Positions 6,046-19,360 of a DNA stretch of 64,000 bases are shown here, piece after piece. Location of the stretch: assembly GCF_024320785.1 (NCBI RefSeq), contig NZ_JANDBC010000001.1, positions 1,618,001-1,682,000 of the forward strand, given 5' to 3'. This DNA is from Gracilimonas sediminicola (GTDB lineage Bacteria > Bacteroidota > Rhodothermia > Balneolales > Balneolaceae). A program made the translations under genes and the position numbers. Below the pieces are notes generated by a model. The model did no database searches. It was given only the letters and a program-made list of their open reading frames with translations, and was not told where the DNA came from. The number at the start of each line of letters is the position of its first letter. The first letter of the stretch is position 1.

Positions 6046-6966
6046 ATGATTTTAGAACCGAGCATACTGTCGAAATTATCCTCGCTTGAACTGCGGGCAA
6101 AGAAGATTGTAGAGGGATTTATTTCCGGGCTGCATAAAAGTCCGTTTCATGGGTTCAGTGTGGAATTTGCGGAACACCGGCCGTACAATCCCGGCGATGA
6201 CTTCAAGCATATCGACTGGAAAGTATATGCCAAGAAAGAGCGGTTTTATGTGAAGCAGTATGAGGAGGAGACAAACCTGCGCTCTTATGTGATGCTGGAT
6301 ACAAGCTCGTCCATGCTGTTTAAGCATTTTGGGGAATGGACAAAGCTCAGGTATGGAATTCATTACGCCGCCTCGCTGATGTATATGATGCACCGCCAGC
6401 GCGATGCCTGTGGGCTCATCCCCTTTAATTCAAAGATCGATGCTTTCATCCCCGCCAAATCAACCTATGCCCATCTTCGCCAGATTTATACTGAGCTGGA
6501 GCGGGAACTGATCCGTGAGGAAAAGAACGACCCTGAAAAGCGTAAGACAGCTTCAGCCCAGGCTATTCACGAAGTGGCCGAACGGTTAAACCACCGAAGC
6601 CTGGTGGTCATCATCACCGACCTTTTTGAAAATATCGATGAGCATGAAGAGATTATTTCTGCCCTGAAACACCTTCGCCACCGAAAGCATGAAGTGCTGT
6701 TATTCAACGTGCTGGAAAAGAAAAGTGAACGCGACCTGGATTTCCCCGACCGGCGCTTTGTTTTTGAAGACATGGAGGTTGATGAGGAAGTGGAAGTGCT
6801 GCCGGCTCAGGTTCGGGAAGATTACCGGAAGAAAGTGGAAGAATACACAAAGAAATTCCGCATGGCCTGCAGTGAGTTTGAAATCGACTTTGCCGAAATG
6901 GATACGCAGGGGCAATTTGATCAATCCTTGCTGGCTTACCTTATAAAACGGAAGCGGTTAGGGTGA
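6046..6966 (+). CDS. DUF58 domain protein (VWA-like)
   Basis: 306 residues. The DUF58 signature G.....YxPGDDxKxIDWK is present (RPYNPGDDFKHIDWKVYAK, about 45-63), followed by a VWA-like metal-site motif DTSSSM (about 86-91). DUF58 proteins usually sit beside a MoxR AAA+ ATPase and VWA/BatA-type membrane genes. None of these is nearby, so this copy looks solitary. It is divergent from the DASS operon with a 114-bp spacer and is followed by an 8-bp inverted repeat. Function is inferred only at family level (scaffold or chaperone-assisted assembly). Confidence 0.85.
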   Translation: MILEPSILSKLSSLELRAKKIVEGFISGLHKSPFHGFSVEFAEHRPYNPGDDFKHIDWKVYAKKERFYVKQYEEETNLRSYVMLDTSSSMLFKHFGEWTKLRYGIHYAASLMYMMHRQRDACGLIPFNSKIDAFIPAKSTYAHLRQIYTELERELIREEKNDPEKRKTASAQAIHEVAERLNHRSLVVIITDLFENIDEHEEIISALKHLRHRKHEVLLFNVLEKKSERDLDFPDRRFVFEDMEVDEEVEVLPAQVREDYRKKVEEYTKKFRMACSEFEIDFAEMDTQGQFDQSLLAYLIKRKRLG

Positions 6967-6968
6967 GT

Positions 6969-7006
6969 TCGTTAATCGTTATTCGTGAATCGATTATTAT
7001 TAACGA
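6969..7006. repeat. Intergenic inverted repeat TCGTTAAT/ATTAACGA
   Basis: 8-bp arms at 6969-6976 and 6999-7006, with a nested AATCG/CGATT pair, between convergent genes. It may act as a weak bidirectional terminator. It belongs with the other GTTATTCGTT-like intergenic repeats of this window. Confidence 0.4.
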
Positions 7007-7034
7007 GTCCATATAAACTTCTTTTTTAGTGCCT

Positions 7035-7805
7035 TTACTGGTAACGATTTAAAATATTTTCGATCACCAACCTTGGTTCTTCGGAGGATGAAGTTTTACT
7101 TATTGACTTTTTGGAGTGTCCACGTGTTCTCACATAAGAACCTGAGATAAGTAAAAATCTTCCCTTAAGACCTCCATCTAAATTATAATAATTTTTCTCG
7201 TTAGGCAGGGGGCCTTTAATTGCTGTAATATTTACTTTTATAGATCCATACAGGCTCTGAAAGAAGTCCTTATTGAACATTATTGAGTTTGTATTAACTA
7301 CTACTGTATCCCATACAATAGAGTTATAATATGTAGACTCAATATCGATACTGTAGTAGTCGGCCCCACTAATTTCATTCCAAGAAAGTTCAATTTCGTT
7401 ACTAGTGGTGTCTTGATCATCAAGCAAAATTTTGTCATAACTAAGTTCAGGCATAATGTGGTCAGAAAAGGTGGTCTTTCTTCCATTGTATTCAACTTCC
7501 AGCTCTAATAAAATTCCTTCATCTACAGTAAAGGTTTCTATAGTGTATGCGAACTCTATATCTTGCCTGAAATATCCAAGATCTTTTTCATTAATACTTG
7601 AGCGTATGAGGTCAGGGTTTTTAAAGTTATAGGCCTCAATTCTTGATTGAATGGTTGCATATCCGGTCACATCGTGTAAGTCAAAAGTTCCGGCATACCC
7701 AATTATAAACTCATTTCTTTCTGCTTCATTTTTACATGAAAGCAAGAAGATTGATAAGAAAATAAGGGTTAATGAAAGTAGTGACTCACGACTGATAGTA
7801 TGCAT
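7035..7805 (-). CDS. Hypothetical lipoprotein with Fn3-like segment
   Basis: 256 residues. The N terminus is a lipoprotein signal with lipobox LLSC (Cys24), so it is probably membrane-anchored at the cell surface or periplasm. Residues about 130-175 read like a fibronectin-III strand pair (ELSWNEISGADYYSIDIES). I do not recognise the family. It lies 9 nt downstream of another lipoprotein gene, and the two form a unit. Both genes are visibly richer in A+T than their neighbours, which suggests recent acquisition or fast evolution. Confidence 0.7.
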   Translation of the reverse strand: MHTISRESLLSLTLIFLSIFLLSCKNEAERNEFIIGYAGTFDLHDVTGYATIQSRIEAYNFKNPDLIRSSINEKDLGYFRQDIEFAYTIETFTVDEGILLELEVEYNGRKTTFSDHIMPELSYDKILLDDQDTTSNEIELSWNEISGADYYSIDIESTYYNSIVWDTVVVNTNSIMFNKDFFQSLYGSIKVNITAIKGPLPNEKNYYNLDGGLKGRFLLISGSYVRTRGHSKKSISKTSSSEEPRLVIENILNRYQ

Positions 7806-14159: not shown

Positions 14160-15002
14160 TTAAACGGTACACACTTCCTCTGCTTCCTTTATAATTTTTG
14201 ATCTTTTACTATGGCTGAACCGCAGTTGATTCAAGACCTCTTGCTGATCCAGCAGCTGCTTGCAATGAACGATATCCTCATTTAATAATGACTGTTTCTC
14301 TTTCCTGGTTAAGCTTAGTAAAGCTGTAATCGGGTGGATTTGTGTCTCTTCAATCAAGCTGCGCAATCCCTGTCCTTTTGGGTAATTCCAGCTCAGTAAT
14401 TTCATTCCGGAGCATGCAGCGTAATCAATAGCATCCTGAGTAAACCGGGTGTTGGTTGCTATAAAACCACAGGATTTTTTGTTTTTTAGATTTGAGTCAG
14501 TCTTCCAGGTTTCTGAAACATCCAAAAAACGGGACTGCACATACAAAGGTATAGTGACATTACAATGATGATCTTTCCGGTTATGGAACTTGCATTCAAT
14601 CATGAAAATCTCCTGTTCATCTTGTGCAATTACGTCTATTTCATGAGAAACACACTTACCCTGAACGGTTTCCCCAACCTCAGTTTTGTACCCTAAGCTC
14701 CTGAATACTTCAGAAATCAAAACTTCAAAAGGATATCCTGATGGGCCAAGTTCGAGCAACGATTCTTTCAGTTTATATCTGCGTGCCACTCGCTTCGAGT
14801 TCTTTTTGAGAAGACGGTAAGCCTCGCGGTAAATTTCTTTTGTAGTGATATCATCCCGAAAGTAACCGGTTTCTTCTAAATGATTCACTACAGCCTTAAT
14901 AACCGGCGGCTGAGCACCGGCGTTACCCAACGACTGCTTTAACTTGGACAACTTAAATTTTTCTCGCTCCCCGGTCGACTTTATAACATCAAATGATTTC
15001 AT
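14160..15002 (-). CDS. ATP-cone domain fused to an Mrr-like PD-(D/E)XK nuclease
   Basis: 280 residues. The N terminus (about 1-85) reads as an ATP-cone: VIKSTGEREKFKLSKLKQSL, later RVARRYKLKESLLEL. ATP-cones are the nucleotide-sensing modules of ribonucleotide reductases and NrdR. Residues about 90-190 form a restriction-endonuclease-like fold: PFEVLISEVFRSLGY, then EIDVIAQ with Asp123, and IECK with Glu136 and Lys138. The tail may be a helical DNA-binding region. No methyltransferase or other restriction gene is adjacent. Nuclease activity gated by a nucleotide is inference; the substrate is unknown. Confidence 0.75.
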   Translation of the reverse strand: MKSFDVIKSTGEREKFKLSKLKQSLGNAGAQPPVIKAVVNHLEETGYFRDDITTKEIYREAYRLLKKNSKRVARRYKLKESLLELGPSGYPFEVLISEVFRSLGYKTEVGETVQGKCVSHEIDVIAQDEQEIFMIECKFHNRKDHHCNVTIPLYVQSRFLDVSETWKTDSNLKNKKSCGFIATNTRFTQDAIDYAACSGMKLLSWNYPKGQGLRSLIEETQIHPITALLSLTRKEKQSLLNEDIVHCKQLLDQQEVLNQLRFSHSKRSKIIKEAEEVCTV

Positions 15003-15488: not shown

Positions 15489-15501
15489 GAATAATGACCT
15501 C

Positions 15502-15547
15502 GCACCAAATCTCAATGACCAATATCCTTGAGCTTGGAATTTGGTGC
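15502..15547. repeat. Intergenic inverted repeat GCACCAAAT/ATTTGGTGC
   Basis: Perfect 9-bp arms at 15502-15510 and 15539-15547, embedded in CTTGAG/CTTGG-rich sequence between the VOC gene and the AraC gene. It looks like a dispersed intergenic repeat or a terminator-like hairpin. Confidence 0.45.
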
Positions 15548-15581
15548 TTGGTACTTGAGGTTTTAAATTTACCTTGACGCT

Positions 15582-16154
15582 ATGGAAAAAATGACGCTGC
15601 ATATAAAAAACATGGTTTGCGACCGCTGCGAGATGGTCATAGAAACCGCGCTTACGGCGCTGGGGCTTAAAGTAGATCATGTTCAGCTTGGAAAGGCTGA
15701 AGTAACCCGCCAGGGGGATCATCCCACCCTTAAAGAGATTGAAAAAGAAATGGAGCGCTTCAACTTTGGGCTGATTAAGGATGAAGATTCTATTTTAGTG
15801 GAAAAGGTGAAAACAACACTGATTCAATGGGTAGATTCGGGAGAGCTGGAAACCGATGACACTTCCTTATCGGATTACCTGGCTAAGAAGCTTGCCAAAA
15901 GTTATGCTACGATATCCCGCATTTTTTCCCGGAAAGAAGAAATTACGATTGAAAAATATTTTATTCGTCTGAAGATTGAAAAGGCCAAAGAACGGGTGGA
16001 GTATGAGAATCTCAGCTTCAGCGAAATTGCGTATCAGTTAGGATATAAGAACCTTCAACACTTATCGCGACAGTTTAAAGAAATAACCGGGATGAGCATG
16101 AGTGAATACCAAAAGCTGCAAAACCCTGAGCGCAAATCGCTTGATAAAATTTAG
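15582..16154 (+). CDS. AraC-family regulator with N-terminal HMA-like metal-binding head (copy 1)
   Basis: 190 residues. The first about 70 residues look like a heavy-metal-associated domain, with MVCDRC supplying Cys13 and Cys16. The C-terminal half is an AraC/XylS double helix-turn-helix: SRIFSRKEE, then SFSEIAYQLGYKNLQHLSRQFKE and the closing TGMSMSEYQKLQ. A metal-sensing activator is inferred. A paralogue with the same CxxC positions lies at 18794-19360, and the two bracket a P1B metal ATPase. The next gene begins 7 nt downstream, so co-transcription is likely. Confidence 0.85.
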   Translation: MEKMTLHIKNMVCDRCEMVIETALTALGLKVDHVQLGKAEVTRQGDHPTLKEIEKEMERFNFGLIKDEDSILVEKVKTTLIQWVDSGELETDDTSLSDYLAKKLAKSYATISRIFSRKEEITIEKYFIRLKIEKAKERVEYENLSFSEIAYQLGYKNLQHLSRQFKEITGMSMSEYQKLQNPERKSLDKI

Positions 16155-16161
16155 AAGTACC

Positions 16162-16623
16162 ATGAATGGATTGAAACTGAAAATTCCCCCGGCTCTTCTG
16201 TTCCTGCTGTGTGTGGTACTCATGTGGCTGACAGATCGTTGGCTTACTCTTGAGCCATTAGTTCTAAAAACGCCGGAATGGGTGTATGGCTTGCTCATTT
16301 CGACAGGTGGTTTGGTAGTTCTTTTGGGGGTGATTGAGTTTAGTAAAAAATCAACCACCGTAAACCCGCATAAACCACAGGATACTTCTGCATTTGTGAA
16401 GTCAGGGATCTATCGTCTTACAAGAAATCCCATGTATTTGGGGATGGTTCTTATTCTTTGTGCGGCTGTGTTTAAATTAGGGAATTTACTTACCGTGCTG
16501 TTCATTCCATGCTTCACCTGGTATATGAACGAGTTTCAGATAAAGCCTGAAGAAGAGGTAATGAAGCAAAAGTTTGGGGATGAGTTTCTGGATTACAAGA
16601 AGAAAGTTCGGCGCTGGGTGTGA
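16162..16623 (+). CDS. Isoprenylcysteine carboxyl methyltransferase/PEMT-like integral membrane methyltransferase
   Basis: 153 residues from the ATG at 16162, 7 nt after the AraC stop; an in-frame ATG at 16102 lies inside the AraC gene and is less likely. Hydrophobic helices are followed by SGIYRLTRNPMYLGMVLILC, the SAM-binding RNPMY motif of the ICMT/PEMT family, and by EEVMKQKFGDEFLDYKKKVRRW. Bacterial members often accompany metal-resistance genes. The methyl acceptor is unknown. Its placement next to the HMA-AraC gene suggests a metal-response role. Confidence 0.85.
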   Translation: MNGLKLKIPPALLFLLCVVLMWLTDRWLTLEPLVLKTPEWVYGLLISTGGLVVLLGVIEFSKKSTTVNPHKPQDTSAFVKSGIYRLTRNPMYLGMVLILCAAVFKLGNLLTVLFIPCFTWYMNEFQIKPEEEVMKQKFGDEFLDYKKKVRRWV

Positions 16624-16659
16624 TGAAATCTGAAATTGTGCAAGCTTCATAAAATAGTG

Positions 16660-16731
16660 CAAGCGTCCGCTTGAACGATGTATGATTTTAAAGATGAGGT
16701 GTGGTTTCATTCTGGTCCAAGCGGACGCTTG
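16660..16731. repeat. REP-like pair of inverted palindromes (BIME-like)
   Basis: CAAGCGTCCGCTTG (16660-16673) and CAAGCGGACGCTTG (16718-16731) are exact reverse complements 44 nt apart. Each is itself palindromic except for the two central bases. The second is extended by CTGGT/ACCAG outside a one-base mismatch. They fill the gap between two convergent stops (16623 and 16760). The form is that of REP units moved by RAYT transposases; a RAYT-like tail lies at 1-117. They may also terminate both transcripts. Confidence 0.65.
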
Positions 16732-16759
16732 AACCAGGCATGGTCGTTATAACCTGATT

Positions 16760-18709
16760 TTAGCAGGCATCACAACAGGAAGCTGCAGCCATCTTCGGCT
16801 TCGACACCTCATCGCTTTTCCGGAATAAATCTAAAATGGAACCTCCTTCAGAAAAAGTGTTTTGAACACGAATGGCATTTGCGATGGCAATAAGGGCCAC
16901 ACCCACATCAGCAAAAATGGCTTCCCACATAGAGGCCAGGCCAATGGCGGCAAGTCCCATCACCAGCACTTTAATGCCCAGCGCAAACCCGATGTTTTGC
17001 CACACCACCTTATGGGTGAACCGGGAGATGTCGATAGCTTTGGCAACTTTGGAAGGCTGATCGGTTTGAATAACGACATCGGCAGTGTCAACGGTTGCGT
17101 CTGATCCGATGCCTCCCATGGCAATACCTACATCAGCCAGGGTAATTACCGGCGCATCATTCACCCCGTCACCTATAAAGCCGACGGTATTCCCTTTGCC
17201 CAAAGCCTGCTCAACGAGGCTGTATTTTTCATCAGGAAGTAAGCCGCCGTGAGCCTCATCAAGCCCCAGCTCGTTAGCAACAAACGAAACAACATCGGGG
17301 TTATCACCGGATAGCATTATCATTCGCTGAATTCCCCTTTCCCTGAGCTCCTGAATAGTCTGTTTACTGTCCTCCTTAATTTTATCGGAAATACGGATGG
17401 TTCCCGCATGTTCTCCGTCCACCGCTACATGGACAAAGGTATAAGGCTCAGAAAGGTTGTCTTGAGTTACCTTTACTCCACGTTCTTTTAGCAATTCTGC
17501 ATTTCCAACTAAAACTTCTTTGTGTTTAATAAATCCTTTAAGTCCCTTTCCGGAAACCTCTTGTTGCTGCTCAACTTCAAACAGTTCCTGCCCGTTTTTA
17601 AATGAGAGAATGGCCTTGCCAATCGGGTGTGTGGAATGTTGTTCAAGCGAGGCGGCGTAGGCAATGACCTCTGCTTCACTTAATCCGTTATGGGTGGTCA
17701 CCGTTTGCACTTCAAAAGTTCCTTCAGTAAGTGTTCCGGTTTTATCCATAAACAGGATATTCATTTTTCGAAGTTGGTCCAGATAATCCGAGCCTTTCAG
17801 CAAAATACCGTTTCTGGAGGCGGCCCCGATTCCCCCGAAATAACCGAGCGGTATAGAGATTACGAGTCCACAAGGGCAAGAAACCACAAGAAAAACGAGG
17901 GCTTTATAGAACCACTCCTGAAATACATACTGCTCTACAAATAAATAGGGGACAAACGTAACGGCGACTGCCAGCCATACAACGATAGGGGTGTACACTT
18001 TAGCGAATTTTGTCATAAAGCGCTGAGTGGGGGCTTTTCGCTGGGCGGCCTCTTGTACCATTTCAAGAATATGGGAAAGCTTGGTGTCCTCAAATACACT
18101 GTTTACCCGGATGCGAACAAGCCTGTCCTGATTAATGGAGCCGGCCCAGACTTCTTCGCCGGAAGTTCGGTTTACAGGTTTGGATTCTCCGGTAAGGGCC
18201 GCGGTATTAAAGGATGCTTTCTCGGTGAGCAATTCACCATCCAGCGGTACTTTTTCTCCGGGCCGCACCTGAATGATATCCCCAACTTCAACCTGGCCGG
18301 GATGCACCATGATGGTTGCTCCATTCCGCTCTACCGTTGCAATATCAGGCTGCTGCTCAATCAGCTTTTGGATAGAGTGGCGGGCCTTGGTAACCGCTCC
18401 GTGTTGTGCATATTCTCCAATCATGTAAAAGAGCATGACCGCCACGCCTTCTGCGTATTCACCCAAAGCAAAAGCTCCAATGGTGGCAATACCCATCAGG
18501 AAAAACTCACTGAACAGGGTTCCTTTTTTTATGGACCGATAAGCTTTCATCCACACGGGCCCGCCTACAAACAGGTATGAAATGACAAAGAGGGAAATGA
18601 ACACATATTCCTGTCCGGTAAAAGTAAAAGCGTGCCGGGCAATCAGTGCGGCAATAAGGAAAACGGAGGCAATAGCAACCTCCCGGTATTTTTTCAGGAA
18701 CGAGATCAT
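16760..18709 (-). CDS. P1B-type heavy-metal-translocating ATPase (Zn/Cd/Pb-type likely)
   Basis: 649 residues. Actuator motif TGES (173-176), membrane metal site SCPCGL (CPC 278-280), phosphorylation motif DKTGTLTEG (Asp322), HP motif THPIGKA, and hinge GDGVNDAP are all present. It exports soft-metal ions across the inner membrane using ATP. It has no N-terminal HMA domain, but the C terminus ends in CCDAC, a likely accessory metal site. The CPC followed by G and a Zn/Cd-type layout suggests ZntA/CadA-like specificity; copper cannot be excluded. It lies 84 bp downstream of the HMA-AraC copy 2 on the same strand. Confidence 0.92.
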   Translation of the reverse strand: MISFLKKYREVAIASVFLIAALIARHAFTFTGQEYVFISLFVISYLFVGGPVWMKAYRSIKKGTLFSEFFLMGIATIGAFALGEYAEGVAVMLFYMIGEYAQHGAVTKARHSIQKLIEQQPDIATVERNGATIMVHPGQVEVGDIIQVRPGEKVPLDGELLTEKASFNTAALTGESKPVNRTSGEEVWAGSINQDRLVRIRVNSVFEDTKLSHILEMVQEAAQRKAPTQRFMTKFAKVYTPIVVWLAVAVTFVPYLFVEQYVFQEWFYKALVFLVVSCPCGLVISIPLGYFGGIGAASRNGILLKGSDYLDQLRKMNILFMDKTGTLTEGTFEVQTVTTHNGLSEAEVIAYAASLEQHSTHPIGKAILSFKNGQELFEVEQQQEVSGKGLKGFIKHKEVLVGNAELLKERGVKVTQDNLSEPYTFVHVAVDGEHAGTIRISDKIKEDSKQTIQELRERGIQRMIMLSGDNPDVVSFVANELGLDEAHGGLLPDEKYSLVEQALGKGNTVGFIGDGVNDAPVITLADVGIAMGGIGSDATVDTADVVIQTDQPSKVAKAIDISRFTHKVVWQNIGFALGIKVLVMGLAAIGLASMWEAIFADVGVALIAIANAIRVQNTFSEGGSILDLFRKSDEVSKPKMAAASCCDAC

Positions 18710-18733
18710 AGCATATCTGTTAATTTGATCTCA

Positions 18734-18783
18734 AGATAGCGGTATCTGCACCGGGTGGATTGCAGTATTGTGTAATTCTTGTG
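18734..18783 (-). promoter_or_regulatory. Candidate regulator-binding region upstream of the P1B ATPase
   Basis: In the 84-bp spacer are a TTGTG direct repeat spaced 11 bp, one helical turn (18768-18772 and 18779-18783), an AGATA/TATCT hairpin (18734-18747) and a CTGCA/TGCAG pair (18746-18765). AraC proteins bind direct repeats at such spacing. The link is inference. Confidence 0.3.
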
Positions 18784-18793
18784 CAGGATTTTG

Positions 18794-19360
18794 TCAGAGC
18801 TTGTCGATGGAGATGCGCTTGTTCTCCTTCACGTCCTTAAAGTGAGAGGGTGACAGCCCGGTTTCTTTCTTAAACTGTCGGGAGAAATGCTGCTGACTGC
18901 TATATCCAAGCTCATAGGCGATTTCCGTGAGGCTTTGTTCGCCATAAACAATAAGCTCTTTGGCCCGCTCAATTTTCTGCAGGATGTAATACCGCTCAAT
19001 GGATTTCCCCTCCACATTGGAAAACAACCGACTGAGCTGCTGATAATCTTTATTAATTTTTTTGGAAAGATAGGCAGACAGGTTGCCCTCCAGCTCCTTG
19101 TCGGTGCGGATCAACTGAATGATAAGCTGTTTAATCTGCTCTACAATCCGGCTGCCTTTATCGTTAATCAATTCAAACCCATTGTTGCGCACAACTTGAA
19201 TCAGGCGTTCGTATTCATCTGCGGTAACCGGATTTGATAAGGTCAGCTGTCCGAGTTCGATTTTCTGAATCTCAAAATCGGCAGCCAGCAGCTTTTCTTC
19301 CAGAACTTCCGCGCAGTGACTGCACACCATGTTTTTTATGTGAAAGTGTTTTTCATCCAT
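18794..19360 (-). CDS. AraC-family regulator with N-terminal HMA-like metal-binding head (copy 2)
   Basis: 188 residues from the ATG at 19360; an upstream in-frame ATG at 19396 would add 12 residues. It has the same layout as the gene at 15582: MVCSHC (Cys13, Cys16) in an HMA-like head, a linker, then an AraC HTH with LTEIAYELGYSSQQHFSRQFKKETGLSPSHF. From the start chosen here the two copies share the register of the CxxC. It is directly upstream of the P1B ATPase on the same strand and is its most likely local regulator. It probably senses the metal that the pump exports. Confidence 0.86.
   Translation of the reverse strand: MDEKHFHIKNMVCSHCAEVLEEKLLAADFEIQKIELGQLTLSNPVTADEYERLIQVVRNNGFELINDKGSRIVEQIKQLIIQLIRTDKELEGNLSAYLSKKINKDYQQLSRLFSNVEGKSIERYYILQKIERAKELIVYGEQSLTEIAYELGYSSQQHFSRQFKKETGLSPSHFKDVKENKRISIDKL

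Follow-up and report, generated by a model that had tools for sequence, protein, structure and literature searches.

A putative metal-response locus of Gracilimonas sediminicola with two HMA-headed AraC-type regulators and a P1B-2-type pump

Metal-dependent control of an adjacent efflux pump is the task of regulators such as ZntR and CueR (MerR family), CsoR, ArsR/CadC and Fur/Zur, and it is the task that we propose for a regulator of another type at the locus described here. In neither of the two regulators of this locus did Pfam, or NCBIfam among the matches listed, reveal a MerR, CsoR, ArsR/CadC or Fur/Zur domain. They share the HTH_18 domain with members of the AraC/XylS family such as AraC and MarA/SoxS but, unlike these, they carry an HMA fold instead of the usual sensor domain and are short (188-190 aa). 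The fold of these heads and their MxCxxC motif are those of CopZ, Atx1, GolB and the N-terminal domains of P1B ATPases, whereas here the head is fused to a DNA-binding domain and has either an arginine or a histidine fixed before its second cysteine. The pump of the locus shares the CPC motif and the last-helix lysine and aspartate with the P1B-2 pumps ZntA and CadA (aligned to ZntA 4umv); however, it lacks their N-terminal HMA domain and has its cysteines at the C-terminus instead. Finally, the locus encodes an ICMT-like membrane methyltransferase, a type of protein that is presumably also represented in a metal-resistance setting by CzcN and NccN of Cupriavidus. The regulator and the pump of those systems are different ones, and the gene at our locus is identified by its Pfam PEMT/ICMT matches.

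Among the papers found, few concern the sensing of cytosolic copper or zinc in Bacteroidota, and no description of HMA-AraC regulators was found among those listed by searches of an open-access library. In a copper study of Bizionia argentinensis from 2024, the portions of the text available to us present two ArsR-family genes as cytoplasmic regulators, besides two MerR-type and three CopY-type proteins in which the known copper-binding site is missing, and the word AraC is absent from those portions (PMC11213822).

The window, by which we mean the whole 64-kb stretch of DNA that was analysed, contains the following features:

15582..16154, plus strand: AraC1, 190 aa, an HMA head (C13, C16, CDRC type) followed by an AraC DNA-binding domain
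16162..16623, plus strand: ICMT/PEMT-like membrane methyltransferase (PF04191 43.7 bits, PF04140 28.7 bits)
16760..18709, minus strand: P1B-2-type ATPase, 649 aa, no HMA domain (CPC 278-280, DKTGT 322-326, K580, D601)
16763..16780, minus strand: C-terminal SCCDAC of the pump, residues 644-649
18731..18738, minus strand: predicted -7 element of the pump promoter, TATCTTGA, with 4 of the 6 fixed letters of the Bacteroides consensus TAnnTTTG
18759..18785, minus strand: predicted AraC2 operator, TGCACAAGAATTACACAATACTGCAAT, half-sites spaced 21 bp
18794..19360, minus strand: AraC2, 188 aa, an HMA head (C13, H15, C16, CSHC type) followed by an AraC DNA-binding domain

The genes form two facing two-gene units, AraC1-ICMT on the plus strand (15582-16623) and AraC2-pump on the minus strand (19360-16760). 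The ICMT-like gene starts 7 bp past the end of AraC1, and the two genes probably share one transcript; AraC2 lies upstream of the pump gene, at a distance of 84 bp. Between the converging ICMT-like and pump genes, at 16660-16676 and 16718-16734, the palindrome CAAGCG(T/G)(C/A)CGCTTGAAC occurs twice. There are 11 copies of it in the genome (reversed control, 0), and the palindrome suggests a REP-like repeat or a shared terminator. Elsewhere in the window, the gene at 14160-15002 has an ATP-cone-like N-terminus (24.8 bits, just below the cut-off of 25.8) fused to an Mrr-type nuclease domain.

An earlier note on this DNA had read HMA-like heads with CxxC at residues 13 and 16 in both AraC proteins, and our analysis bears this out. 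PF12833 (HTH_18) matches the two regulators with 61.4 and 72.3 bits (cut-off 33.6), and the presence of HTH_18/HTH_AraC above the Pfam cut-off places both AraC1 and AraC2 in the AraC/XylS family; no MerR, ArsR or Fur DNA-binding domain exceeds the Pfam cut-off in either of them, only the AraC type doing so. In the case of the heads, both miss the curated cut-off of PF00403 (HMA), with 18.7 and 12.7 bits against 24.8. Structure prediction, which the earlier note had named as a check that could overturn its reading, modelled both heads as HMA folds: they follow the HMA order of strands and helices with a mean pLDDT of 90.4 in both, the last strand being missing from the listed elements of the AraC1 model. 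With Foldseek, the AraC1 head matched CopZ 2qif at E 0.0026, with a TM of 0.80 by target length and 2.1 A over 70 columns; the AraC2 head matched 2qif, Atx1 and GolB with TM 0.68 to 0.73 and E 0.03 to 0.08 (for CopZ 2qif, TM by target 0.68 and E 0.032). The PDB matches of both models to HMA chains have modest E-values (0.003 to 0.09) and rank below those to AraC domains; the matches also cover the DNA-binding domains of AraC, SoxS, GadX and YesN. At the sequence level, the HMA-AraC family profile matches CopA/CopZ HMA chains of the PDB. By modelling together with homology, the fold of both regulator heads is that of an HMA domain. AraC1 and AraC2 are 40% identical to each other, and the nearest named records to AraC1, among the matches listed, are from Gracilimonas amylolytica (89% identity) and a Balneola MAG (86%).

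A two-row profile at 1e-10 found a match in 47 of 58 Balneolaceae genomes, the best match spanning the AraC domain only in some of them. When one genome per species was scanned, at least 511 HMA-AraC relatives were obtained; the best 80 loci, which were kept, are mostly from Bacteroidota, with a few records from Balneolota, Ignavibacteriota, Chlorobiota, Acidobacteriota and Pseudomonadota. MxCxxC stands near the start of 119 of 122 full-length genes (loci L042-L161) and is absent from three. As L046/L082 and L047/L083 are duplicate fetches, the 122 include two genes counted double, and the 67 pump-adjacent genes discussed below include one. Position 15, immediately before the second cysteine, is R in 99 and H in 18 of the 117 distinct CxxC-bearing members and nothing else (R 81, H 14 in a 95-row alignment). 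At E 0.01, all 95 scanned members match PF12833 and just 13 match Pfam HMA; since this HMA model misses most of them, HMA-AraC proteins may pass as plain AraC proteins. The heads, together with the conserved site described below, point to a type of bacterial metal sensor that is common and seems not to have been described before. Two adjacent HMA-AraC genes of one locus (L081:5474-6139 and 6810-7370) are each short of one CxxC cysteine and, if functional, may be natural metal-blind variants.

In the tree, all CxHC rows, including AraC2, fall in one 19-row clade (support 100/100), and AraC1 belongs to a 14-row clade (support 100/98) together with the third HMA-AraC copy of its own genome and a CopA-linked copy. 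A recent duplication giving rise to AraC1 and AraC2 was considered and was dropped in view of these separate, well-supported clades. The description in the earlier note of two diverged copies around one pump likewise finds no support, given the separate clades and the fact that AraC1-ICMT and AraC2-pump modules occur apart elsewhere. The third of the three HMA-AraC genes in this genome (L065:13859-14467, CERC head) adjoins a gene for a 1253-aa RND-like protein and lies about 8 kb from a His-rich pump. Two closely similar copies of a His-rich P1B pump and its neighbours are found at the ends of contigs C3 and C4 (L063 and L064), which may reflect a duplication or an assembly split.

The two units adjoin each other in five genomes (G000, G046, G040, G022 and G003). 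Their juxtaposition is not required, because the modules are separate in G051, with AraC1 on one contig and AraC2-pump on another, in G032, which has the tailed type of pump found here and AraC1-ICMT, yet no AraC2 that we could find, and in G055, which has AraC1-ICMT and no pump match at 1e-150. An ICMT-like gene is located near AraC1 in L042-L047 and L050. The AraC2-pump pair, for its part, recurs across Balneolaceae, which argues that this pairing is more than chance.

Most AraC2-pump spacers share the sequence TGCAC(A/G)AGAATTACAnAAnnnTG(C/T)AA(T/G) despite differing flanks. Its half-sites are 21 bp apart, which is also the distance between the araI1-I2 half-sites of AraC, and the second half-site lies 26 bp before a Bacteroidota -7 box; in the window, the element at 18731..18738 begins 26 bp after the start of that half-site. 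With up to 3 mismatches allowed, TGCACRAGANNTACANNANNNTGCAAT has a single match in the 64 kb (18759-18785, minus strand; 0.01 expected) and a single match in the whole genome. The looser pattern TGCAYNANNNNNACANNANNNTGYAAK gave 25 sites in 19 of the 58 Balneolaceae genomes (reversed control, 1), counts that are not independent, since some of these loci had served to derive the pattern and the genomes come from related species. These 19 genomes are all among the 21 in which a CxHC AraC was found, the heads of hits below 240 bits having been read only in part for this count. All 25 sites are within 4.1 kb of a CxHC AraC gene, with two exceptions: in G049, AraC2 is on a different contig and the site lies 47 bp from the pump; on contig C4 of G052, the site is 103 bp from the pump and 7.7 kb from AraC2, which is itself 5.6 kb away from that pump. 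G024 and G035, in which AraC2 is present, have site variants outside the pattern; in G032, a site with one mismatch lies some 200 bp upstream of the pump; and a second site of G048 is located before a different gene. The first downstream gene of at least 80 aa encodes, for 23 distinct sites, a P-type pump in 16 cases, a protein of 114-124 aa in 5 and another protein in 2, a tally in which G200 lies outside the 58 genomes and the L222 pump starts 388 bp from its site. In the CEHC branch, the same site precedes a 114-122 aa gene that is itself located before an SPC-type pump. The 114-124 aa gene between operator and pump has a product starting with MIEV (or VLMIEV) in L058, L067-L069, L224, L228 and L229.

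A comparison of 21 distinct sites shows no variation at T, C and A in the first half-site, at the central ACA, or at T, A and A in the second half-site. Self-comparison of the first seven bases gives the highest value at 11 bp (0.667) and the next at 21 bp (0.599), and because the 11-bp match is the better one, the repeat may consist of three boxes about 10-11 bp apart instead of two. Counted from where the second half-site starts, a TAnnTTTG-like box at 26 bp has the top score in 18 of the 21 (12 alone, 6 tied); TAnnTTTG is the Bacteroides -7 consensus (PMC4747536). At this spacing the second half-site would therefore lie at about the position of the -33 element. In the AraC family, a half-site at that position is the arrangement of class II activators. 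AraC2 very probably binds this conserved DNA site before the pump.

Our preferred explanation, to which we assign a probability of roughly 0.7, is that AraC2 senses Zn, Cd or Pb and activates the P1B-2 pump, and that AraC1 is a separate, copper-associated sensor. AraC2 would be a cytosolic metal sensor in which an HMA head is joined to an AraC DNA-binding domain. When Zn(II), Cd(II) or Pb(II) is in excess, C13 and C16 of the head would bind it; H15, and possibly H5/H7, are candidates for additional ligands. The metal would make AraC2 bind the predicted site at 18759-18785, or would re-shape AraC2 on it; the second half-site would then substitute for a -33 element and the pump would be switched on, its C-terminal cysteines presumably handling the same metals as AraC2. 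AraC1 would be a second sensor, belonging to the copper-associated CxRC subfamily and forming its own unit with the ICMT-like gene, and the pump would merely be its neighbour. The alternative that survives best, which we nevertheless hold to be unlikely, is that AraC2 is a repressor whose apo-form sits over the -33 region until metal releases it. A repressor with its second half-site at the -33 position would look alike; however, AraC-family precedent and the near-constant spacing of 26 bp to the -7 box fit a class II activator that touches the polymerase.

The assignment of metals draws on the genes that accompany the regulators. Tabulating the neighbours of HMA-AraC genes, as the earlier note had advised, showed that a P1B pump lies within 4.5 kb in 67 of the 122 cases, pump type and HMA being read by motif. 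In 39 cases this is a copper-type pump with an N-terminal HMA-type CxxC. Another 14 are CSHC genes, each with a Zn-type pump without an HMA motif; these are all the CSHC genes with a P1B pump in that range, and a fifteenth, L056, lies 5.6 kb from its pump. Six are AraC1-type genes beside the same tailed pump (one of the six fetched twice), and the remaining eight comprise two copper-type pumps without a recognised motif, two of CPH type, two of SPC type beside CEHC genes, and two that are unclear or cut. P1B pumps near CxRC members are of the copper type in 41 of 51 cases, and the solved HMA chains best matched by the heads are mostly copper proteins, both of which would suit a scenario in which the two regulators sense copper and the P1B-2 pump is a passenger. 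This scenario is nonetheless quite improbable: CSHC genes stand beside Zn-type pumps, two CEHC genes adjoin an SPC-type pump and an RND-like gene (named by eye), and the operator-like site precedes those Zn-type and SPC-type pump units. In G007, AraC1, an ICMT-like gene, a gene for a CDF-like protein (CDF by resemblance to L047) and one for an HMA-bearing pump lie in this order on one strand; in G043, a CDF-like gene (by eye) comes after an AraC1-like gene, and an HMA-bearing pump comes next. Based on the neighbouring pumps, the clades and the gene orders in G007 and G043, the best reading is that AraC1 is linked to copper and AraC2 to divalent metals. The idea of two metals, put forward in the earlier note, has thus become plausible, since the heads fall in separate subfamilies (CxHC and CxRC) with different partners.

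As for the pump itself, the observations that it has no N-terminal HMA and that it ends in CCDAC are both correct: there is no Pfam HMA match, and the end reads SCCDAC. It matches TIGR01512 (cadmium family) with 500.3 bits (cut-off 313.5), and in the alignment with ZntA 4umv its CPC (278-280) falls on CPC, and K580 and D601 on the last-helix Lys and Asp, which we take to be Lys693 and Asp714 of ZntA. A reference cited in PMC6305203, a paper on Arabidopsis HMA4, ascribes to Lys693 and Asp714 of ZntA, in its title, a role in metal coupling. The CPC motif, the last-helix Lys/Asp and the cadmium-family profile make it a member of P1B-2 (Zn/Cd/Pb), but one without the N-terminal HMA by which bacterial P1B-2 pumps are classically defined. 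Its N-terminus contains no Cys and no His. Its nearest relatives (about 45-55% identical), from seven other Balneolaceae genomes and further Bacteroidota, end right after the last helix and have an N-terminal extension with Cys and/or His. At least two Cys are present in the last 15 residues of 23 of 24 AraC-clade pumps versus 0 of 24 others; the lone exception, L173, belongs to the tailed clade but has an internal stop and lacks the tail, and L238, outside the filter, is uncounted. L173 lies on contig C2 of G057, the internal stop is a TGA, and the other copy of that genome, L191, is open. A Fur-like gene is located upstream on the same strand of 14 of the 24 untailed relatives (158 to 2,531 upstream bases read), and PF01475 was confirmed on three of these genes; related pumps thus often have a Fur-family gene upstream, whereas the pump of the window has an HMA-AraC gene. 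Upstream of 6 of the 7 untailed Balneolaceae pumps there is a TTGCAA-n5-TTGCA palindrome.

These comparisons bear on the division of labour proposed in the earlier note, in which the metal-sensing module sits on the regulator and not on the pump. In its fuller form, the pump would have lost its HMA since the regulator captures the metal, the head perhaps even passing it on to the pump. The HMA is indeed on the regulator and not on the pump, and CxHC AraC and tailed pump co-occur tightly, all 21 genomes with the former having the latter. However, the 39 copper-type pumps beside HMA-AraC genes keep an HMA-type motif, and none of the 24 untailed relatives matches Pfam HMA at E up to 1, while the stretches read around these relatives contain no HMA-AraC. 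As regulator HMA and pump HMA coexist in copper systems, and in view of the relatives, the proposal is unsupported and we consider it highly improbable; most simply, the absence of HMA from the pump predates its link with HMA-AraC, because the untailed relatives lack both. Hardly credible, finally, is the view that the 27-bp stretch is an RNA element or a remnant of the AraC2 gene end: it begins 12-15 bp past the AraC2 coding match in 10 of the 25 cases, but it is kept before the pump where AraC2 is elsewhere (G049, G052), it precedes a 122-124 aa gene ahead of the pump in G025, G042 and G057, and its 21-bp half-site spacing and -7 box fit protein binding.

In the pump tree, a single branch unites L173 with all the tailed pumps (SH-aLRT 90, under the tool's 95 star). 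Because they share one branch, the swap of regulator and metal-binding end was probably one event, and counting therefore cannot test it. We give even odds to a wider reading, in which HMA-AraC proteins of the Bacteroidota and neighbouring phyla make up a large, so far undescribed class of metalloregulators whose heads follow a one-residue metal code and whose promoters have a common geometry, and in which the CxHC branch of Balneolaceae replaced a Fur-type regulator while the metal-binding residues of the pump moved from the N- to the C-terminus. If the code is true, CxRC would stand for Cu(I) and CxHC for divalent Zn/Cd/Pb/Co; if the geometry is true, the half-sites would lie 47 and 26 bp before the -7 box. 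The family offers a recognisable metal head, an operator predicted at base level and a natural pair of heads distinguished by a single fixed residue, so that sensor, site and metal choice are testable with few constructs, and the operator pattern can be used to find such regulons in other genomes.

A copper operator common to AraC1 and the copZ-copA promoter was also considered and was dropped, because the motif is unspecific genome-wide: with one mismatch, the copZ motif had 13 hits in the own genome versus 18 control hits. Seven of ten Gracilimonas loci had yielded copZ-copA promoters with TGTAA/TATAA/GATAA 47 bp and (A/G)GCATTT 26 bp before a TAnnTTTG-like box, which in L242, L243 and L244 merely ties for the best score. 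The seven recovered promoters, from the set L062 (contig C1 of the own genome) and L242-L251, share the geometry of the AraC2 site. There is no HMA-AraC next to copZ-copA of L062, and it is possible that these genes are controlled in trans by AraC1 or the third copy. Of 13 hand-picked AraC-copA spacers of Flavobacteriaceae, 12 have their best -7 box at the same position, and in a set of 15 spacers the box is the best alone in 11 and tied in 4. The first half-site of the Flavobacteriaceae overlaps codons of the conserved AraC end, and coding could therefore explain its conservation. In the case of AraC1, no operator was found at a promoter that is here unlike those of most other Gracilimonas. 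This promoter (window 15489-15581), which differs in this way in the own species and in G046, holds the inverted repeat CACCAAAT/ATTTGGTG, identified by eye.
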